Below, in pieces: positions 32,986 to 42,169 of a stretch of 64,000 nt of DNA. Within the stretch, counting starts at the first letter, position 1. The number at the start of each line of letters is the position of its first letter. The notes under the pieces are model-generated. The model did no database searches. It was not told the origin of the DNA and saw nothing but the letters and a program-made list of their open reading frames with translations. The stretch covers positions 1 to 64,000 of the forward strand of contig CAJAIK010000023.1 in NCBI GenBank assembly GCA_903939765.1, given 5' to 3'. This stretch comes from an uncultured Chlorobiaceae bacterium. Lineage in GTDB: Bacteria; Bacteroidota; Chlorobiia; Chlorobiales; Chlorobiaceae. The translations under genes and the position numbers were made by a program.

Positions 32986-34122
32986 CTACGCCTCTGCGAG
33001 AAGAGTCGCATAATATGCTTCATAGTGCTCAACAAGCAAGGCGGTTTCATACTGCTTTGCTTGTCGGACACAGGCTTCGGAACACTCGACCCAGTGGGCG
33101 TGATCCGAGAGCAGAAGAAGCGCTTTCTCTGTCATACCTTCGATATCTCCCGGAGCAAGCAGGTAACCGTGAGTTCCCGGAACAATAAACTCCGGAAATC
33201 CTCCAGCCATGGTTGCCACAACCGGCACTCCACAGGCCATGGCCTCAAGCGCCGCAAGGCCGAACGACTCAACATTGCTCGGCATCAACATGATATCGGC
33301 AACGGAGAGCAGCGGAACAATATCATCAAGCTTGCCGAGAAAGCGTACCCGATCCGGAATCCCCAACTGGCGAACCTGAATTTCAGCGTCACTGCGTTCC
33401 GGCCCGTCACCCACAAGCAGCAATGTTGCCTCGGTACGGCGACTCATGGCATAAAAAACCCGGATAATGTCGCCAATACATTTTACCGGCCTGAAATTTG
33501 AGATGTGGATAACAATCTTTTCATCGCCAAGACCCAGTTGTTCACGAATTTCGGGTTTCGGAGAGCGAAAAAAGAGTGAGGTATCAACAAAATTCGGAAT
33601 GACCGTAATCTCCTTTTTCGGGCTGAACATTCTCACCGTCTCCTGCTTCAGCCAGGCCGACACGGCCGTCACCCCGTCTGACTTGTTGATAGCGAGCCTC
33701 ACGACATCCTGCATCCACCGGTCGGCGCCCACAACCGTAATATCGGTGCCATGCAGCGTTGTTACCAGCTTGAAACACTGCGATTCAGCACACTTGTCCT
33801 CAAGCATCTGACGGGCAAGCATGGCGCTCAGTGCATGAGGAATGGCATAGTGGGCGTGGACAATATCAAGCTTTTCATAATAGGCGATATCGGCAATTTT
33901 GGAGGCAAGGGCAAGAGAGTAAAGTGGGCTCTCAAAAAGAGGATAGTGCATCACCTCAATCTCATGACAGAAGATATTGCGTGAAAAGGCTCCAAGCCGG
34001 AAGGGCGCCGCCTGACTGAAAAAATGAACGATATGCCCCTTGGCTGCAAGTGCCTTGCCCAGCTCGGCCGCAATTGCCCCACTCCCCCCGTAGGTATGGT
34101 GACACGAAATGCCGATTTTCAT
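32986..34122 (-). CDS. bshA: N-acetyl-alpha-D-glucosaminyl L-malate synthase (bacillithiol pathway)
   Basis: BshA is a GT4 glycosyltransferase that joins UDP-GlcNAc to L-malate in the first step of bacillithiol synthesis. The 378-residue protein matches the family closely at the N-terminus (MKIGISCHHTYGGSGAIAAE, then IVHAHYAIPHALSAMLAR) and in the GT-B C-terminal domain (IHISNFRPVKCIGD, LLLVGDGPER, PSNVESFGLAALEAMACG with the catalytic ExxE-like glutamates). Chlorobi are known to make an N-methylated bacillithiol, so presence here fits the host. Other bsh genes are not in this window. It converges with mreB, with 18 bases between stops. Confidence 0.9.
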   Translation of the reverse strand: MKIGISCHHTYGGSGAIAAELGKALAAKGHIVHFFSQAAPFRLGAFSRNIFCHEIEVMHYPLFESPLYSLALASKIADIAYYEKLDIVHAHYAIPHALSAMLARQMLEDKCAESQCFKLVTTLHGTDITVVGADRWMQDVVRLAINKSDGVTAVSAWLKQETVRMFSPKKEITVIPNFVDTSLFFRSPKPEIREQLGLGDEKIVIHISNFRPVKCIGDIIRVFYAMSRRTEATLLLVGDGPERSDAEIQVRQLGIPDRVRFLGKLDDIVPLLSVADIMLMPSNVESFGLAALEAMACGVPVVATMAGGFPEFIVPGTHGYLLAPGDIEGMTEKALLLLSDHAHWVECSEACVRQAKQYETALLVEHYEAYYATLLAEA

Positions 34123-34304
34123 ATTAAAAATATATATTAAAACAATTTATGCCGATATTGCCATCGACATGTCATATCGGTACACAATACCCGGCCGTTC
34201 AAACATACAAAAAAGCCTGAACATGGAGGCGAAAAAGCCGCGCCGCTTGCTACCACAGCATCAATGACAGAGTGTACGGCTTTCGGGCTAAAGGAGAGAG
34301 GCTA

Positions 34305-34697
34305 TCATTGGCTGGATCGACCTGTCAGCATGGAAGCTCCAGCCGAACTGCTCCCGGATGCTGACCCGGCAATCTCCTTCTCTTTATTGCGCAATAACCC
34401 TTCAGGTAAAGCGCTGATATAACCGGGACATGGCAGTTTTTCACATGCTATTTTTGAATCCGACCAGAAAAGATGGCCGGTTATATCAACCTTGGCGGCA
34501 ATCATGGTTTGTTCAGGGGTATCAAGGTAGCCGACATCCCCTTGTTGCAGAATATAAGCCACTTTGCCTCCGCCCGCGTCATCACCGATCCTGAGCGGTA
34601 CTGCAGGCGCCACTGCAAAAAAAGCGGCAACACCGGCACCGGTAAAGAGTAACACCCTCAAGAGCGCGGTCATACCTGTTATCTGGAAGAGTTTCAT
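34305..34697 (-). CDS. Exported short DUF1566-like protein (third of three)
   Basis: This 130-residue protein has a signal peptide (TALLRVLLFTGAGVAAFFAV) and the module shared with the genes at 37175 and 37564: PLRIGDDAGGGKVAYI, QQGDVGY, EQTMIAAKVD, LFWSDSKIACEKL. After PGY it departs from the full-length relative at 37564: the second half of the DUF1566 domain (W-x-LP ... YWSS ... VRPI) is missing and replaced by a Ser/Gly-rich tail (GSASGSSSAGASML). It lies 63 bases after the TPR gene at 34761 and is last in the five-gene run. Function unknown; it is exported and probably a partner of the TPR proteins. Confidence 0.65.
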   Translation of the reverse strand: MKLFQITGMTALLRVLLFTGAGVAAFFAVAPAVPLRIGDDAGGGKVAYILQQGDVGYLDTPEQTMIAAKVDITGHLFWSDSKIACEKLPCPGYISALPEGLLRNKEKEIAGSASGSSSAGASMLTGRSSQ

Positions 34698-34760
34698 GAT
34701 TTTCCTATGCGTTAAAATGGATGTATCTCCTTTCTGTTGCCATCGTCAGGGATGCTATGA

Positions 34761-37178
34761 TTATCGTTGTATGGCACGGATGTCGGTTGCCCGTTTTTCC
34801 GTTTTCTCAGCATCGCTTGCGCGTCCGGTATTCATATAGATGAACGCCAAATTGTCGAGGAGCGTCGCTGCATTTGGATGCATCGGGCCAAGATTTTTTT
34901 CGATAATCGCCAGTGAACGCAGCGACAGGGGTTCAGCTTTGTTGTACTGCTCCTGGGCAACATAAATCACCGAAAGGTTATTGAGGCTCACCGCCACATT
35001 GGTGTGATCGGGGCCAAGAGTCTTTTCCCATATCTGAAGTGAACGCTTCAAAAGGGGCTCAGCCTCACGGTATTTTTTCTGGGCATTGTAGAGTAAGGCC
35101 AGGTTATTAAGGCTTAATGCGATATCGGGGTGAAGGGAGCCAAATGTTTTTTCGCGAATAGCGAGTGCACGCTTGAACAGTGGTTCTGCCTCCGCATAGC
35201 GCTTCATGGTGAGGAACAACTGGGCCAGATTATCCAGACTCAGGGCAACATCAGGCGAATCTGAGATAAAGGCATGCTCAAAAATTGAAAGCGTACGCCG
35301 GTAGAGCCCTTCGACCTCCTGGTAACGCCCTTCGGCATAATAAAGCGCTGCGATGTTGTTGATGCTGAAGGCAAGATCAGGGGAATCAGAGCCGATGGTT
35401 TTTTCAAAGATGATCTGAGCCCGTTTAAAAAGCGGCTCAGCCAGTGCATATTGGCCCTGGATATAGTAAAGGGAGCCAAGGTTATTCAGCTTTACAGCTA
35501 CATCAGGATGATCAGGGCCAAGGAGTTTTTCCTGAATGGCCAGCGCACGCTTCATGAGCGGCACGGCTTCTGAGTATTTTTCTTGTACTCTATAAAACAT
35601 TGCCAGGTTGTTCAGGCTCCTGGCAACTTCAGGGTGCTCAAGGCCAAAGCTCTTCTCCCTGATTTCGAGTGCAAGAAGGTAGAGTGGTGCTGCCTCCTGG
35701 TATCTTCCCTCGGCTTTGTAGAGCTCAGCCAGGTTGTTCAGAATCTGCGCCACACGGGGGTGTTCCGGGCCAAATGTCTTCTTATGGATTGCCAATGCAC
35801 GCAGATAGAGCGGTTCTGCCTCTCTATATCTGCCCTGAAAAGCGTAAAACCCGGCCAGATTGTTCAGACATGTGGCGATATCGGGCTGATCGGATCCAAA
35901 AGCCACCTCCCGGAGGGCCAGTGCGCGCTTTGAGAGCACTTCAATTTCAGCATATCTGCCCTGCAATGAGTAAAGCCCGGCAAGACTGTTCAGGGTGATG
36001 GATATTTCTGAATGATAAGGGCCAAAAACCTTTTCACGAATTGCGAGCGCTCGTTTGAAGAGCGGTTCGGCTTCATGGTACCGAGCCTGCATTTTATAGA
36101 GCTCGCCAAGGTTATTGAGACTTGTGGCTACATCGGGATCATCGGGATCAAGAACTTTTTCCCGAATGGCGAGTGCACGCAAATAGAGTGATTCAGCCTC
36201 TGCGTAGCGTCCCTCGGTAACGTAGAATCCCGCCAGATTGTTGAGACTTGTTGCAACATGGGGATCAAACGGGTCAAGGTTTTTTTCGCGGATAGCCAGT
36301 GCACGAAGGTAAAAAGGCTCTGCTTCATGGTATTTGCCCTGAATTTGATAGAGCTCTCCAAGGTTGTTCAGAGGCCTGACGACATCAGGGTGACTCAGGC
36401 CGAGTGTACGCTCATCTATGGCCAGCGCCCGTATAAAGAGCGGTTCGGATGCTGCATACTGCCCCTGGGCAAAGTACAACCTCCCGAGGTTGTTCAGACT
36501 CATGGCTACATCAGGATGATCTCTACCAAGGAGTTTCTCGCGGATTGCCAGTGAGCGCAGAGAGAGTGATGTTGCAACAGCATACTTGTCCAGCGTGCCA
36601 TAAAACTCTGCCAGGTTGTTCAGACTTACGGCTACATCAAGGTTATTGCCGTTGAAGATCTTTTCACGAATGGCAAGCGCACGCTTATAGAGCGGTTCCG
36701 CCTCGGCATAACGCCCTTGAGCCTTATACAACTCCGCCATATTGTTCAGGCTGGTTGCCAGATCAGGATGATCGCTCTCAAGGTTTTTTTCGCGGATGTC
36801 GAGCGCCCGCCTGAAAAGCGGTTCTGCTTCAGCATAGAGCCCTTGTGCGTAGTATATGCCGGCAATATTGTTCAGATTCAGGGCCAAATCGGAAGCGTTC
36901 GATCCAGCATTTTTTTCCGCATCTTTTAAATCTTTCTCTGCGACAATTTTGATACGGTTGAGCCGGTAACGTTCATCAACATCCTTGTTGTTTGCCGCAT
37001 GAACAATCTCTGAACCATTGATTCCGCCACAGGAGATCAGAAGAAACAGAATCAGAGCGCGGCTGTTTTTTTTCCTTAAAAGAGAAGGGGAGATGTTTGC
37101 GCCTCTCTTCAGTGCGTTAATAATCATGGGTTTCATGATGAAATTTTTTTTGAGGTATAGACGCACATGGCTTTTCAT
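34761..37178 (-). CDS. Exported protein with 17 TPR units (kinesin-light-chain type)
   Basis: This 805-residue protein has an N-terminal hydrophobic segment ALILFLLISCGGINGS; LISC is a possible lipobox. From about residue 100 it is built of 17 consecutive 42-residue TPR units with consensus SLNNLAxLYxxQGRYxEAEPL, then YxRALAIREKxxGPDHPDVA. The last unit is a divergent cap (LLDNLAFIYMNTGRASDAEK). Such arrays form a superhelix that binds peptides or proteins. The start used here overlaps the stop of the gene at 37175 by ATGA; an alternative ATG is 14 codons downstream. It is a paralogue of the gene at 38037, which also has 17 units. The partner and function are unknown. Confidence 0.85.
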   Translation of the reverse strand: MKSHVRLYLKKNFIMKPMIINALKRGANISPSLLRKKNSRALILFLLISCGGINGSEIVHAANNKDVDERYRLNRIKIVAEKDLKDAEKNAGSNASDLALNLNNIAGIYYAQGLYAEAEPLFRRALDIREKNLESDHPDLATSLNNMAELYKAQGRYAEAEPLYKRALAIREKIFNGNNLDVAVSLNNLAEFYGTLDKYAVATSLSLRSLAIREKLLGRDHPDVAMSLNNLGRLYFAQGQYAASEPLFIRALAIDERTLGLSHPDVVRPLNNLGELYQIQGKYHEAEPFYLRALAIREKNLDPFDPHVATSLNNLAGFYVTEGRYAEAESLYLRALAIREKVLDPDDPDVATSLNNLGELYKMQARYHEAEPLFKRALAIREKVFGPYHSEISITLNSLAGLYSLQGRYAEIEVLSKRALALREVAFGSDQPDIATCLNNLAGFYAFQGRYREAEPLYLRALAIHKKTFGPEHPRVAQILNNLAELYKAEGRYQEAAPLYLLALEIREKSFGLEHPEVARSLNNLAMFYRVQEKYSEAVPLMKRALAIQEKLLGPDHPDVAVKLNNLGSLYYIQGQYALAEPLFKRAQIIFEKTIGSDSPDLAFSINNIAALYYAEGRYQEVEGLYRRTLSIFEHAFISDSPDVALSLDNLAQLFLTMKRYAEAEPLFKRALAIREKTFGSLHPDIALSLNNLALLYNAQKKYREAEPLLKRSLQIWEKTLGPDHTNVAVSLNNLSVIYVAQEQYNKAEPLSLRSLAIIEKNLGPMHPNAATLLDNLAFIYMNTGRASDAEKTEKRATDIRAIQR

Positions 37179-37528
37179 GGTGAGTTGCGTTCATGGGTGA
37201 TGCTCCCGGTAAGTCGTGTTTGCCTTGCTCGGCCCTGCAAATTACCGTCCTTGAACCCTATCGCTTCAAGCTTGTCGGTTGCCGTTCTGGTGTCAGACCA
37301 GTAAAGGGTGGCTGAAACATCAGCTTTTGCAACAATGACCGCTTGCTCCGTTGTTTCAGCATAATCCTTGTCACCGGGCTGCACAATCCAGGCAACAACG
37401 CCTCCTCCATAAGCATCGCCGACCTTGAGCGCCGCCGACGATTGTGATGAAAGAGCAACCATGCCAACAGCGGCAAGCAGCAGCGCTTTCAGTTGTCGGG
37501 TAAAAACTTTTTGTAGACAATTGTTCAT
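37175..37528 (-). CDS. Exported short DUF1566-like protein (second of three)
   Basis: This 117-residue protein has a signal peptide (RQLKALLLAAVGMVALSSQS) and the shared module LKVGDAYGGGVVAWI, QPGDKDY, EQAVIVAKADV, LYWSDTRTATDKLEAIGF. Like the protein at 34305 it ends where the longer relative continues with the W-x-LP half of the DUF1566 domain; the last ~25 residues (NLQGRARQTRLTGS) are basic and unrelated. Its stop overlaps the start of the next TPR gene by four bases, so translation is coupled. It may be a genuine short form, since a second short form exists, rather than a pseudogene. Confidence 0.65.
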   Translation of the reverse strand: MNNCLQKVFTRQLKALLLAAVGMVALSSQSSAALKVGDAYGGGVVAWIVQPGDKDYAETTEQAVIVAKADVSATLYWSDTRTATDKLEAIGFKDGNLQGRARQTRLTGSITHERNSP

Positions 37529-37563
37529 AACGGATCCATTTTTTCAACAAGAGAGATGAACTA

Positions 37564-38040
37564 TCAAAACTTTCTTATGGGTCTGACCCGCAAGCGGCTC
37601 TCCCTGGAACGGATATGCTCTTTGCCGTCAAAGAATTGCTGACTCCAGGCGCTGTCGGGCTCAAGGGATGAAGAACTCCAGTAGTCAACACCCTGAAACC
37701 CTCCAAGTACCTCTTTGCTTAAAAAGAGCCTGTTCAGATCCTCTTTGGCTGGAAGTGTCCAATCGGTAAAACCTTTCAAGGTCAAGCTGTCGCATGTCGC
37801 TTTGGCATCAGACCAGCCCATTTGGGTTTCCAGATCGGCAAACGCAGCAATAACGCCGTGTTGCTGGGGCGCTTTGGAGTCATTTTTTTCAACAAAGACA
37901 ATCATTCCACCCCCGAGGATATCCCCTTTTTTGAGCGGCTCCGCCATCAAAACAACAAAAGCCGCAACCACACCGAAGGAGGACGCGAGCATGGCCTGCA
38001 AAAGTTGGCAAGCCAAATTTTTAGCAGGAGATTTCGTCAT
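37564..38040 (-). CDS. Exported DUF1566 (Lcl C-terminal-like) domain protein (first of three)
   Basis: This 158-residue protein has an N-terminal hydrophobic signal/anchor (MLASSFGVVAAFVVLMAEP) followed by a complete DUF1566-like domain: KKGDILGGGMIVFVEKND, GVIAAFADL, MGWSDAKATCDSL, then the second half FTDWTLPAKEDLNRLF, VDYWSSSSLEPDSAW and the end LRVRPIRKF. The fold is related to FISUMP and, more distantly, to C-type-lectin-like sulfatase-modifying-factor domains, often carried by surface proteins. Its ATG overlaps the stop of the TPR gene at 38037 by four bases. Biochemical role unknown. Confidence 0.78.
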   Translation of the reverse strand: MTKSPAKNLACQLLQAMLASSFGVVAAFVVLMAEPLKKGDILGGGMIVFVEKNDSKAPQQHGVIAAFADLETQMGWSDAKATCDSLTLKGFTDWTLPAKEDLNRLFLSKEVLGGFQGVDYWSSSSLEPDSAWSQQFFDGKEHIRSRESRLRVRPIRKF

Positions 38041-40397
38041 CGTTTTTCTGCCCTGATAAGGGTTGCGCGTTTTTCCAGGCTCTCAGCATCGCTCAGCTTC
38101 CCCGTTTTTTGATAAATAAGAGCCAGATTATCAAGAACTATGGCTACGCTTGGGTGAAGAGGCCCCAGAGAGCTCTCTGTAATGGCGAGTGAGCGCTTGC
38201 AGAGTGGTTCAGCCTCTGCGTACCTTTTCTCCGCAGTATACAGCGCGGCTAAATTGTTGATGCTTATGGCCAAATCAGGATGATTCCCGTCCAGAATTCT
38301 TTCCTGGATGGCAAGGGCACGCTTGTAAGCAATCCTTGCCGCTTTGTATTTGCGCTGCTCACTGTAGAGCAAAGCAAGGTTGTTAAGACTTGTTGCAACA
38401 CCGGAATGTGCGGCACCATAGATCTTTTGCCGAATCGCAAGCGCTTGCTTGCAGAAAGTCAATGCCTCACGGTAATGGCCCTCAAGACGGAGCAACTCTC
38501 CGAGATTATTGAGCGTGGTTGCAACATCAGGGTGGCGGATACCCAAAAGCTTTTTCTGGATGGCGAGAGCCCGGCGGTAGAGAGATTCAGCTTCAGGAAG
38601 GTCGCCTTGAGCTTTTTTCAGCTCTGCCAGGTTGTTCAGGCCAAGAGCCGTAGTGGCATGGTGCTGGCCAAAAATATCTTCATTGATGGCTTGCGCCCGG
38701 AGATAGAGCGCTTCAGCCTCACTATACTTTCCTGATGCAAAACAGATACCGGCGAGATTGTTGAGGCTTGTTGCGATATCGGGATGCTGCGGTCCAAAGT
38801 TTTTTTCGCGGATGGCCAGAGCACGCCGACAGAGTAGCTCAGCCTCGGCATATTTTGCCTGGTTTTTGTCGAGTACGGCGAAATTATTCAGGCTTGTTGC
38901 CACGAGGGGATGCTGCGGACCAAAGAGCTTCTCACGGATGGCGAGTGCCTGATTGAAGCACGAGAGAGCCTCGGCAAAGCGACTTTGCATCCGGTACAAC
39001 TCTCCAAGGTTATTGAGACTTATGGCTATATCGGGATGAAACGGGGAATAAATTTTCTGGCGGATGCGGAGTGCACGCTGGTAGAGCGTTTCCGCTTTTT
39101 TATACTCCCCCTCGGCAAAGTATATTCCCCCAAGGTTGTTGAGACTTGTTGCCACATCGGGCTGGTCAGCGCCAAAGAGCTTCTCGCGGATGGCAAGCAC
39201 ACGAGCCGAGAGTCGAACGGCATCGCGGTATCTGTTTTCTGCAACATAAAGCCCGGCAAGGTTATTCATAACCGTTATTCTATCGGGATGATTCGGCGAA
39301 TAAATTTTCTCCTGAATGGCAAGTGCTTGCAGGTAGAGCAGCTCAGCCTCCTTATACCGCCCCAGCGCAAAATAGAGCCCGCCGAGGTTGTTGAGACTTG
39401 TTGCTACAGCAGGATTATTTGGATCAAGAATAGTTTTCCGAATGGCAAGAGCACGCAGGTAGAGGGGTTCAGCCTCCGTATAGCGCCCCAATGCCAGATA
39501 GAGCCCGGCGAGGTTGTTGAGACTTGCTGCGACCATAGGGTGGTCAGGGCCAAAGGCCTTTTCACGAAGAGCGAGTACACGCAGGCAGAGCGGTTCAGAC
39601 TCGCGGTAGCGACCCTGAATGCGATATAAATCTGCAAGATTGTTCAACGGCGTCGTGATCTCTGGATGTTCAGTATTGAAGCTCTTTTGCCAAAGAGTGA
39701 GCGAACGCTGGAAGAGTGCTTCGGCCTCAGCAAACCGGCCTTCTGCAACCAGAATTCTCCCAAGGTTGTTCACGCTATGGGCTACATCAGAAGAAGAGGG
39801 ATCGGAACTCTTTTCGCGGATGGCCAGAGCACGCCTGCAGAGTGACTCCGCCTCAGTATAGCGGCATTGAATGCGATACAACTCCGAGAGGTTTGCCAGG
39901 CTGAGGGCAACATCGGGGGGAAAGGGGTTATTGGTTTTTTTACGGATAGCGAGGGCGCGCAGATAGAGTGGCTCTGCATCATGGTATTTTCCCTGAGCCC
40001 TGTAGATCTCAGCCAGATTATTCAAACTGACAGCGATATCGGGATGAAGGGGGGGCAAAATTTTTTCGCGAATGGCAAGTACCTGCCTGAGGAGTGGAAC
40101 GGCGTCTGCATAGCGGGCGTGGATAGCGTAGAGTGCTGCAAGATTATTGAGACTCAGGGCAAAATCAGGATGAAGTGTACCGATATTCTTTTCAGCGGTC
40201 GCCACAGTCTGCCGTGCAACAGTGAGGGCTGACTCATAATTTTCTGGACGATAAAGCTCGTCAGCATCCCTGTTGACTGACGCCCGTACAATTCCGCCCT
40301 GCCCGCCCATACAGAAGAGAGCCGCAAAGAGAAAAAAAAACCTGATTCTCGCAATCGACGAGAGAGGATGATGAAAGTATCTCAACCTGTAACGCAT
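38037..40397 (-). CDS. Exported protein with 17 TPR units, paralogue of 34761
   Basis: I start it at the ATG at 40397 (786 residues) because a signal peptide follows at once (RFFFLFAALFCMGGQGGIVR) and a GGCGGGA-like site precedes it; the frame is open for 31 codons upstream. From about residue 60 it is 17 consecutive 42-residue TPR units of the ALAIREK-GPxHPDVATSLNN type, ending with the cap VLDNLALIYQKTGKLSDAES, clearly homologous to the cap of the protein at 34761. The DNA shows a matching 126-base periodicity. It heads the five-gene run and its stop overlaps the next start (ATGA). Probably a periplasmic or outer-surface scaffold; the partner is unknown. Confidence 0.85.
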   Translation of the reverse strand: MRYRLRYFHHPLSSIARIRFFFLFAALFCMGGQGGIVRASVNRDADELYRPENYESALTVARQTVATAEKNIGTLHPDFALSLNNLAALYAIHARYADAVPLLRQVLAIREKILPPLHPDIAVSLNNLAEIYRAQGKYHDAEPLYLRALAIRKKTNNPFPPDVALSLANLSELYRIQCRYTEAESLCRRALAIREKSSDPSSSDVAHSVNNLGRILVAEGRFAEAEALFQRSLTLWQKSFNTEHPEITTPLNNLADLYRIQGRYRESEPLCLRVLALREKAFGPDHPMVAASLNNLAGLYLALGRYTEAEPLYLRALAIRKTILDPNNPAVATSLNNLGGLYFALGRYKEAELLYLQALAIQEKIYSPNHPDRITVMNNLAGLYVAENRYRDAVRLSARVLAIREKLFGADQPDVATSLNNLGGIYFAEGEYKKAETLYQRALRIRQKIYSPFHPDIAISLNNLGELYRMQSRFAEALSCFNQALAIREKLFGPQHPLVATSLNNFAVLDKNQAKYAEAELLCRRALAIREKNFGPQHPDIATSLNNLAGICFASGKYSEAEALYLRAQAINEDIFGQHHATTALGLNNLAELKKAQGDLPEAESLYRRALAIQKKLLGIRHPDVATTLNNLGELLRLEGHYREALTFCKQALAIRQKIYGAAHSGVATSLNNLALLYSEQRKYKAARIAYKRALAIQERILDGNHPDLAISINNLAALYTAEKRYAEAEPLCKRSLAITESSLGPLHPSVAIVLDNLALIYQKTGKLSDAESLEKRATLIRAEKR

Positions 40398-40783
40398 TTT
40401 ATCCCGCCCCCATACCGATAAAAATAACGTAATAACTCGCTTTTCGAACAAATAGCCTTCCCTGAAACAATCGCGACAGAGAGTGGACATAGACTTTAAA
40501 AAAATATGGTTATCAAACTGTTTTGAAACTCGCTCCCCAACCTCAAAAGTAAATATAACGTATAAATTAAAATATACAGCAGTGGAGGTTCTTTTTTATT
40601 TTCAAAACTTGTCCCGATTCCGCCCTCCTGCATGATAAACTGAAGGCAATTCGTGCTATTATAGGCGGTAGAGATTCCGTAGCGGCTCTGCTCTCTCTGC
40701 GGCTGAAACGGCGGGAAAAAAAGAAATTTGATAAAATTAGTAACGTTTGGAAAGCGGTCGTAGCGACAGACTCAAAGAGACAA

Positions 40784-42169
40784 ATGGAAAATAATCATAA
40801 AAAACAGCAGGTTGCCCTCAGCTCGGTTCTGGCAAGCCTCCTTCTGACCGTCATGAAACTTGTGGTCGGCTTCATGACCGGCAGTATCGGCATTATTTCT
40901 GAAGCGGCACACTCCACCCTCGACTTCGGCGCGGCCTCACTGACGCTTTTCGCCGTTAACATGAGCGATAAACCGGCCGACAGCAAACACCACTACGGAC
41001 ACGCCAAGGTTGAAAGCGTCTCGGCACTCATTGAAACCGGCCTGCTCGTCGTAACGAGCATCTGGATCATCTACACTGCAGCGGAACGGCTGATTGCCGG
41101 AAAAACAGAGATTGATGTCACCTGGTATTGGTATGCCGTCGCCGTTATGGTCATTTCCATCGTTGTTGATTTTTCCCGTTCAAGAGCACTGACGAGAGTT
41201 GCCAAAGAGACCAACAGCCAGGCCCTCGAAGCTGATGCCCTCCACTTCAGCTCCGATATTCTCAGTTCAGTGGTCGTCCTTCTCGGTCTTGTTTGCGTCT
41301 CTCTGGGTATCACCTGGGCTGATGCCGTTGCCGGTATTGCTGTTGCCCTGCTGGTGGGATGGGCCGCTTTCCGTCTTGGGAAAAAAACCATTGACGTGCT
41401 GATCGACGCCGCGCCGGAAGGTCTGGCCGACCGTATTGAGGAGATAACGATGGCGATCAGCAGCGTCATTGCAATCGACAAAATTCGTGTAAAACCGACC
41501 GGGCCGCAGGTCTTCATTGAGATGGCCATCTGCGTCAACAGAACACTCTCGGTTGAAAAAGTGCAGGTAATCTGCGCCGATATCGAAAAAACAGTACGTA
41601 AAGAGTTTCCCGTGGGAGATATCACCATCAACACCCGTCCCATTGCGCTCAACAGTGAAACCATTGCTGAACGAGTCCACGTCATTGGCCTCAATCACAA
41701 CCTTCACGCCCACAACATTTCGACAAACCTCACCGGGCAAAAGAAACACATCTGCTTTGATGTTGAAATTGACCAGCAACTCACCATAAAGCAGGCACAC
41801 GATACCGTTAACGCACTTGAAGAGGAGTTGCACCGGGAGTTCGACGGAGAACTCGATATCTGCATCCATCTGGATCCTCTCCGTAACGAAGAGCGCTCTA
41901 CCGGCCTGCTCCCGGCAGAAGAGAAACAACGGGTGTGTGACACCATTATCAAGGCATCACAAGGCATTGAGAAAATTCAGGATATTCACGACATTCATAT
42001 CCATAAAACAGAAAAGGAGAAACTCTTCATTACCCTCCATTGCTCATTCAATGATGAGGTGCTTCTTGAAGAGGTCCACAGCCTGACCAGCCAGCTCGAA
42101 GGGGCAATTTACCGCTCCCTGCCCAAAGCCGGGAGGGTCATCATTCATGCGGAACCCCTCCTGGCATAA
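40784..42169 (+). CDS. Cation diffusion facilitator family transporter
   Basis: CDF proteins export divalent metals (Zn, Fe, Co, Mn) in exchange for protons. The 461-residue protein has six transmembrane helices in the first ~215 residues. The metal site is seen in SEAAHSTLDFGAAS (helix II, with the H...D pair), HHYGHAKVES and EADALHFSSDILSSVV (helix V HxxxD). Two CDF-type cytoplasmic domains follow (about 215-300 and 300-460), so the C-terminal region is duplicated compared with simple 300-residue members. Metal selectivity is not clear from the sequence; the helix II H/D pair allows Zn or Fe. Confidence 0.9.
   Translation: MENNHKKQQVALSSVLASLLLTVMKLVVGFMTGSIGIISEAAHSTLDFGAASLTLFAVNMSDKPADSKHHYGHAKVESVSALIETGLLVVTSIWIIYTAAERLIAGKTEIDVTWYWYAVAVMVISIVVDFSRSRALTRVAKETNSQALEADALHFSSDILSSVVVLLGLVCVSLGITWADAVAGIAVALLVGWAAFRLGKKTIDVLIDAAPEGLADRIEEITMAISSVIAIDKIRVKPTGPQVFIEMAICVNRTLSVEKVQVICADIEKTVRKEFPVGDITINTRPIALNSETIAERVHVIGLNHNLHAHNISTNLTGQKKHICFDVEIDQQLTIKQAHDTVNALEEELHREFDGELDICIHLDPLRNEERSTGLLPAEEKQRVCDTIIKASQGIEKIQDIHDIHIHKTEKEKLFITLHCSFNDEVLLEEVHSLTSQLEGAIYRSLPKAGRVIIHAEPLLA

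Follow-up and report, generated by a model that had tools for sequence, protein, structure and literature searches.

The window, a 64,000-nucleotide stretch of DNA from an uncultured Chlorobiaceae bacterium, carries on its minus strand a run of five genes in the order TPR1, full Lcl_C/DUF1566, short1, TPR2 and short2. An earlier note had located these five open reading frames and two four-base ATGA overlaps between them, all of which are present. TPR1 (38037..40490, minus strand) encodes an exported kinesin-light-chain-type TPR array of 817 aa with 17 repeats of 42 aa, which run through to the C-terminus, and no further domain. Two starts are possible for this gene, at 40490 (817 aa) and at 40397 (786 aa; the start used in the earlier note). 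The TPR1 stop codon overlaps the start codon of the full Lcl_C gene (37564..38040, minus strand; 158 aa) in the ATGA at 38037..38040, an arrangement that likely reflects translational coupling. The short1 gene (37175..37528, minus strand; 117 aa) ends within the start of TPR2 (34761..37178, minus strand), an exported array of the same type with 805 aa and 17 repeats. This second ATGA (37175..37178) is also present in genome G054 (L014:7829-7832). The run ends with short2 (34305..34697, minus strand; 130 aa), which has a relaxed tail. A glycosyltransferase gene (32986..34122, minus strand) and a CDF cation-efflux gene (40784..42169, plus strand) flank the run and lie outside it. In a scan for promoters and terminators, sites were no commoner than in shuffled sequences.

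The N-termini of the products, read by eye, look like Sec signal peptides. The earlier note had described signal peptides or lipoprotein-like starts, and only the former part stands. TPR2 has a lipobox-like cysteine (LLISC) that also occurs in the G075 orthologue but not in that of G054, so lipidation of TPR2 is unsupported.

The assignment of both large genes to kinesin-light-chain-type TPR arrays proved correct. TPR1 and TPR2 each contain 16 stretches matching Pfam TPR_10, and in both the signal peptide is followed by 17 contiguous 42-residue repeats and no other domain. The 42-residue period and the LNNLA motif of this type are evident from the TPR_10 matches, the repeat statistics and an alignment with KLC1, to which the LNNL columns align. 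An asparagine pair occurs in nearly every repeat (position 8, 85-88%; position 9, 97%), and position 9 is changed at just 0.9% of orthologous sites. Orthologues of TPR1 occur in G054, G011, G013, G069, G072 and G079, and the TPR2 orthologue in G054 is 83% identical. Groove residues (compared at positions 12 and 15) differ among the repeats, yet their turnover between orthologues is 0.22, against 0.41 at other variable positions (p=4e-8). Because TPR arrays without Lcl_C neighbours show a weaker form of this contrast (0.51 versus 0.72), groove conservation belongs in part to this repeat type in general and is not specific to the pairing, and we dropped it as proof of a specific ligand. The same genome holds a fourth exported TPR array of 956 aa on contig C64 (L021:3422-6292) with neither an Lcl_C match nor a short gene beside it, although the contig ends about 400 bases past the array.

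All three small genes had been described as DUF1566-like, and this holds in full for 37564..38040 only. Its product consists of a signal peptide and a complete Lcl_C/DUF1566 domain, which scores 46.7 bits against PF07603 (curated cut-off, 34.9). By sequence it matches the C-terminal domain of Legionella Lcl (PDB 8q4e) with an E value of 1.4e-7. An AF2 model built from 11 sequences has a pLDDT of 78, mostly about 90 in the N-terminal half, and Foldseek aligns it to 8q4e with an E value of 1.3e-7 and a TM score of 0.77 by target length (0.65 by query length). The model thus predicts a C-type-lectin-like fold. Since this fold is the usual target of diversity-generating retroelements (PMC10907252) and the genome contains six reverse-transcriptase matches, the full gene might be the variable protein of such an element, with the TPR genes as bystanders. 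We find this hardly credible. A search of the draft assembly with the 3' end of the gene returned the query itself alone, so that the near-identical template repeat of such an element is absent there, and the contigs with an Lcl_C match carry no reverse-transcriptase match.

The products of short1 and short2 each comprise a signal peptide and a region that aligns to the N-terminal half of Lcl_C only. Neither had any match in a Pfam search, and both lack the C-terminal half (YWSS...VR.F). By Pfam score and C-terminal features, the shorts are relatives of the Lcl_C family rather than members of it. The fold module that the small proteins had been thought to share comes in two forms: a complete C-type-lectin-like domain in one protein, and half-domains that make up a clade. 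AF2 did not fold the short1 protein (pLDDT 47 from 18 sequences, an alignment about as shallow as that of the full domain), a failure that may stem from a shallow or diverged alignment. Two further Lcl_C settings were seen in the same genome: three tandem Lcl_C genes beside an apparent ABC-type efflux system on C68 (L009:5403-7260), and an Lcl_C gene immediately upstream of one for a repeat-rich 1245-aa protein on C108 (L011:7056-11455). Two Lcl_C ORFs also occur in L069, from a MAG labelled Thermoleophilia.

Recurrence and conservation of the gene run

A profile of the short genes was searched against 98 Chlorobiales genomes and gave 19 strong matches in 10 genomes, all of the window's genus. 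A twentieth match in G046, just above 100 bits, is a full-type gene with the His-Gly motif that is cut by a contig end, and it was not counted. Some of these Chlorobiaceae genomes presumably come from lakes, to judge from isolate names. All 19 short genes lie on the same strand downstream of an exported kinesin-light-chain-type TPR array of 16-19 repeats, either directly or with a full Lcl_C gene alone in between. The shorts share one ancestor, and the 19 cases gauge the retention of an ancestral pairing, not 19 independent origins.

Shorts and TPR partners occupy five genomic locations and form five types of unit. Unit A1 has the order TPR, full, short; units A2 and C consist of TPR and short with no full Lcl_C gene adjoining; unit B runs TPR, short, full and then a solute-binding protein gene; and unit D runs TPR, full, short, full. 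A1 and A2 are adjacent in the window, and G054 preserves this order of five genes unbroken. Trees of the TPR arrays and of the shorts recover identical unit types, and the mirror-tree correlation is 0.64 (rho) overall but weak (0.27) across types; we attach little importance to it. Gaps in intact units range from -4 to 81 nt on one strand. The -4 spacing between TPR and Lcl_C genes is kept in six other genomes (G054, G011, G013, G069, G071 and G073, the last at L038), and it is missing in G079, as it is in the copy that G072 carries at the hydrogenase-side site described below.

As a background, 30 Lcl_C loci were examined in 30 genomes of the phylum; they were picked by score and not at random, two of the genomes carry the module at other loci, and none of the loci had such a TPR array within 1.5 kb. 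Because the arrangement recurs in other genomes while no background locus has the TPR array, chance does not account for it. Conserved pairing, the test suggested in the earlier note, is borne out within the genus, where every short has its TPR partner and the overlap is kept; outside the genus no such pairing was found in a search that, beyond the order, covered a limited sample of loci. Ordinary Lcl_C genes, which are numerous, are not TPR-linked, so that pairing characterises the short genes and a few full ones. We conclude that the run of TPR and Lcl_C or short genes is a conserved module.

The truncated tails first suggested that the shorts are pseudogenes of full Lcl_C genes decaying within the operon. 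They lack a Pfam match, the C-terminal half is lost or degenerate to differing extents across unit types A1, A2, B, C and D, the tails also differ by type, and units are partly lost in places, as in G075, where a fragment alone remains at the TPR1 position. However, purifying selection is strong and focused on the N-half core. In nine pooled orthologue comparisons of shorts, not fully independent because A2 of G054 was used in two of them, pN/pS is 0.31 in the half-domain core (about 60 residues) and 0.64 in the tails. The core has 134 changes at 1254 nonsynonymous sites against 127 at 366 synonymous sites (Fisher p=1.5e-24), and dN/dS of the short2 core against G054 is about 0.12-0.14. Furthermore, the reading frames are open in all units, 18 shorts form a single clade in the N-half tree (ultrafast bootstrap, 83), and the His-Gly of the family is replaced in each of these 18 and retained in all 33 full domains compared. 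Decay is therefore most improbable and was ruled out as an explanation: with a core under purifying selection, a single clade and a shared motif change, the shorts are real conserved genes. A Lcl_C-like string in another frame of the short1 tail was considered as a frame-shifted remnant and rejected, since the G013 orthologue, read by eye, is without it.

Genomic location

The module is flanked by a glycosyltransferase/MreB side and by the CDF efflux gene. In most relatives with the flank examined, the site is empty and the flanking genes are adjacent. Relative to the empty site of G013, where the glycosyltransferase and CDF transporter genes adjoin, the absent block spans about 34241..40629 of the window. 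G013, G072 and G073 carry the TPR-full-short triple at another location, on the side of hydrogenase-type genes, the label 'hydrogenase' being a reading of the neighbouring sequences. Since G013 is empty at the CDF-glycosyltransferase site and carries the triple elsewhere, the triple has remained intact in more than one place. At the CDF-glycosyltransferase site, G071 has a shorter TPR gene, with 5 repeats, that is oriented the other way.

In some other proteins, which have no obvious signal peptide, each of the two module domains is fused to TIR. Chlorobiaceae genomes encode proteins that begin with TIR and end with Lcl_C (L067:5537-6922 and L070:7625-9034), L073 and L076 contain ORFs that look similar, and a protein combining TIR, NB-ARC and kinesin-light-chain-type TPR is encoded in the window's genus (L023:5091-7664).

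A polymorphic surface recognition system for self/non-self discrimination or conflict, made of paralogous cassettes that change and that come and go at fixed sites, would fit the presence or absence of the module at the CDF-glycosyltransferase site, its occurrence at other sites and the TIR-Lcl_C and TIR-NB-ARC-TPR architectures within Chlorobiaceae. The relatively high dN/dS of one TPR1 pair (0.161/0.286, G000-G013) points the same way. We nevertheless consider such a system quite unlikely, as no toxin, effector or immunity gene was recognised in the module and no diversity-generating template was found.

A putative cell-envelope complex

Since every half-domain gene found lies beside a gene for such a TPR coil, the two proteins probably cooperate outside the cytoplasm, in a manner not yet described. 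A long exported kinesin-light-chain-type TPR solenoid is inherited, including at new sites, with half of an Lcl_C domain, and most units add a complete Lcl_C. We tentatively favour, with somewhat less than even confidence, a gene module, restricted to this genus, that encodes a cell-envelope complex in which the TPR superhelix binds the half-domain and the full Lcl_C protein serves as a recognition head. After export, the half-domain, unable to close its own fold, would be bound as an extended chain along the Asn-lined TPR lumen, by analogy with peptide binding by the TPR domains of kinesin light chain and O-GlcNAc transferase. In KLC1, asparagine pairs on the concave TPR face hydrogen-bond the main chain of an extended cargo peptide (PMC6214655). 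The half-domain could be a captured client or an adaptor, and the full Lcl_C would be a folded recognition head whose target is probably a glycan or some other surface ligand. The tandem TPR1 and TPR2 copies may have different specificities. The earlier note took the overlapping starts to imply matched amounts of the two protein types, as for complex partners; such equal amounts, like the complex itself, are putative.

Several points count against the complex. Units A2 and C have no adjoining full Lcl_C gene, which indicates that the full protein is not obligatory, and co-inheritance would also follow if a single ancestral operon held genes with independent roles. The weak mirror-tree correlation across types, the array on C64 with no short gene beside it, the groove contrast in arrays without Lcl_C neighbours and the caveat on the AF2 result for the short weigh on the same side. 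TPR, half-domain and full Lcl_C might thus be co-exported and act alone, e.g. as independent surface adhesins. Co-transcription across the short same-strand gaps would by itself explain the linkage, and single-domain Lcl_C genes are numerous without any TPR link. On the other hand, a TPR gene accompanied every half-domain form seen and the triples hold together at a second genomic site, which leaves separate action a serious but doubtful possibility.

A further step beyond the proposed complex, and in our view a rather unlikely one, is that the TPR array is a dedicated holder of an obligate half-domain, which has been selected to stay unfolded and is completed or carried by the TPR, the two genes forming a surface recognition device. 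If true, this would be unlike any described scaffold or chaperone pair. If binding holds, the module would provide a simple two-gene model for the handling of a non-folding client by a long Asn-ladder TPR superhelix beyond the cytoplasm. The numerous exported TPR and DUF1566 proteins of green sulfur bacteria would then also gain a first lead to their function.

Comparison with known systems

Neither the arrangement nor a half Lcl_C domain as its own gene was found in the literature searched. The closest relative of the full protein is the C-terminal domain of the Legionella collagen-like protein (Lcl; PDB 8q4e, PF07603), with which it shares the sequence family and the predicted fold. In contrast to Lcl, it has no collagen-like region and consists of a signal peptide and one domain. 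In Lcl, helices H2-H3 together with strands S5-S9 make up the DUF1566 part, and nearly all contacts between subunits reportedly persist in the absence of S1-S4 (PMC11162425). Trimerisation and glycosaminoglycan binding are further traits of Lcl adhesins. The shorts retain only the part that precedes the core of the Pfam domain.

The TPR arrays share the 42-residue repeat type and the asparagine pair with the kinesin light chain TPR domain (e.g. PDB 6fuz), and about 215 residues align with an E value of about 1e-55. Unlike kinesin light chain, they are bacterial and exported and consist of nothing but 16-19 uninterrupted repeats. O-GlcNAc transferase also has a long TPR superhelix and recognises substrates via an asparagine ladder, according to work cited in PMC10164912, whereas the module has no catalytic domain, and the likeness is one of mode only. 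Exported kinesin-light-chain-type arrays of 438-712 aa likewise occur in other genomes of the genus at L020, L022, L023 and L027, but without an Lcl_C or short gene beside them. These arrays lie next to HlyD-like and ABC-transporter-like genes (named from their sequences), a second recurring context. The component folds of the module are known, and the half Lcl_C kept as a separate gene is a clear example of a known fold of which one half is conserved on its own and found beside one type of partner gene only.
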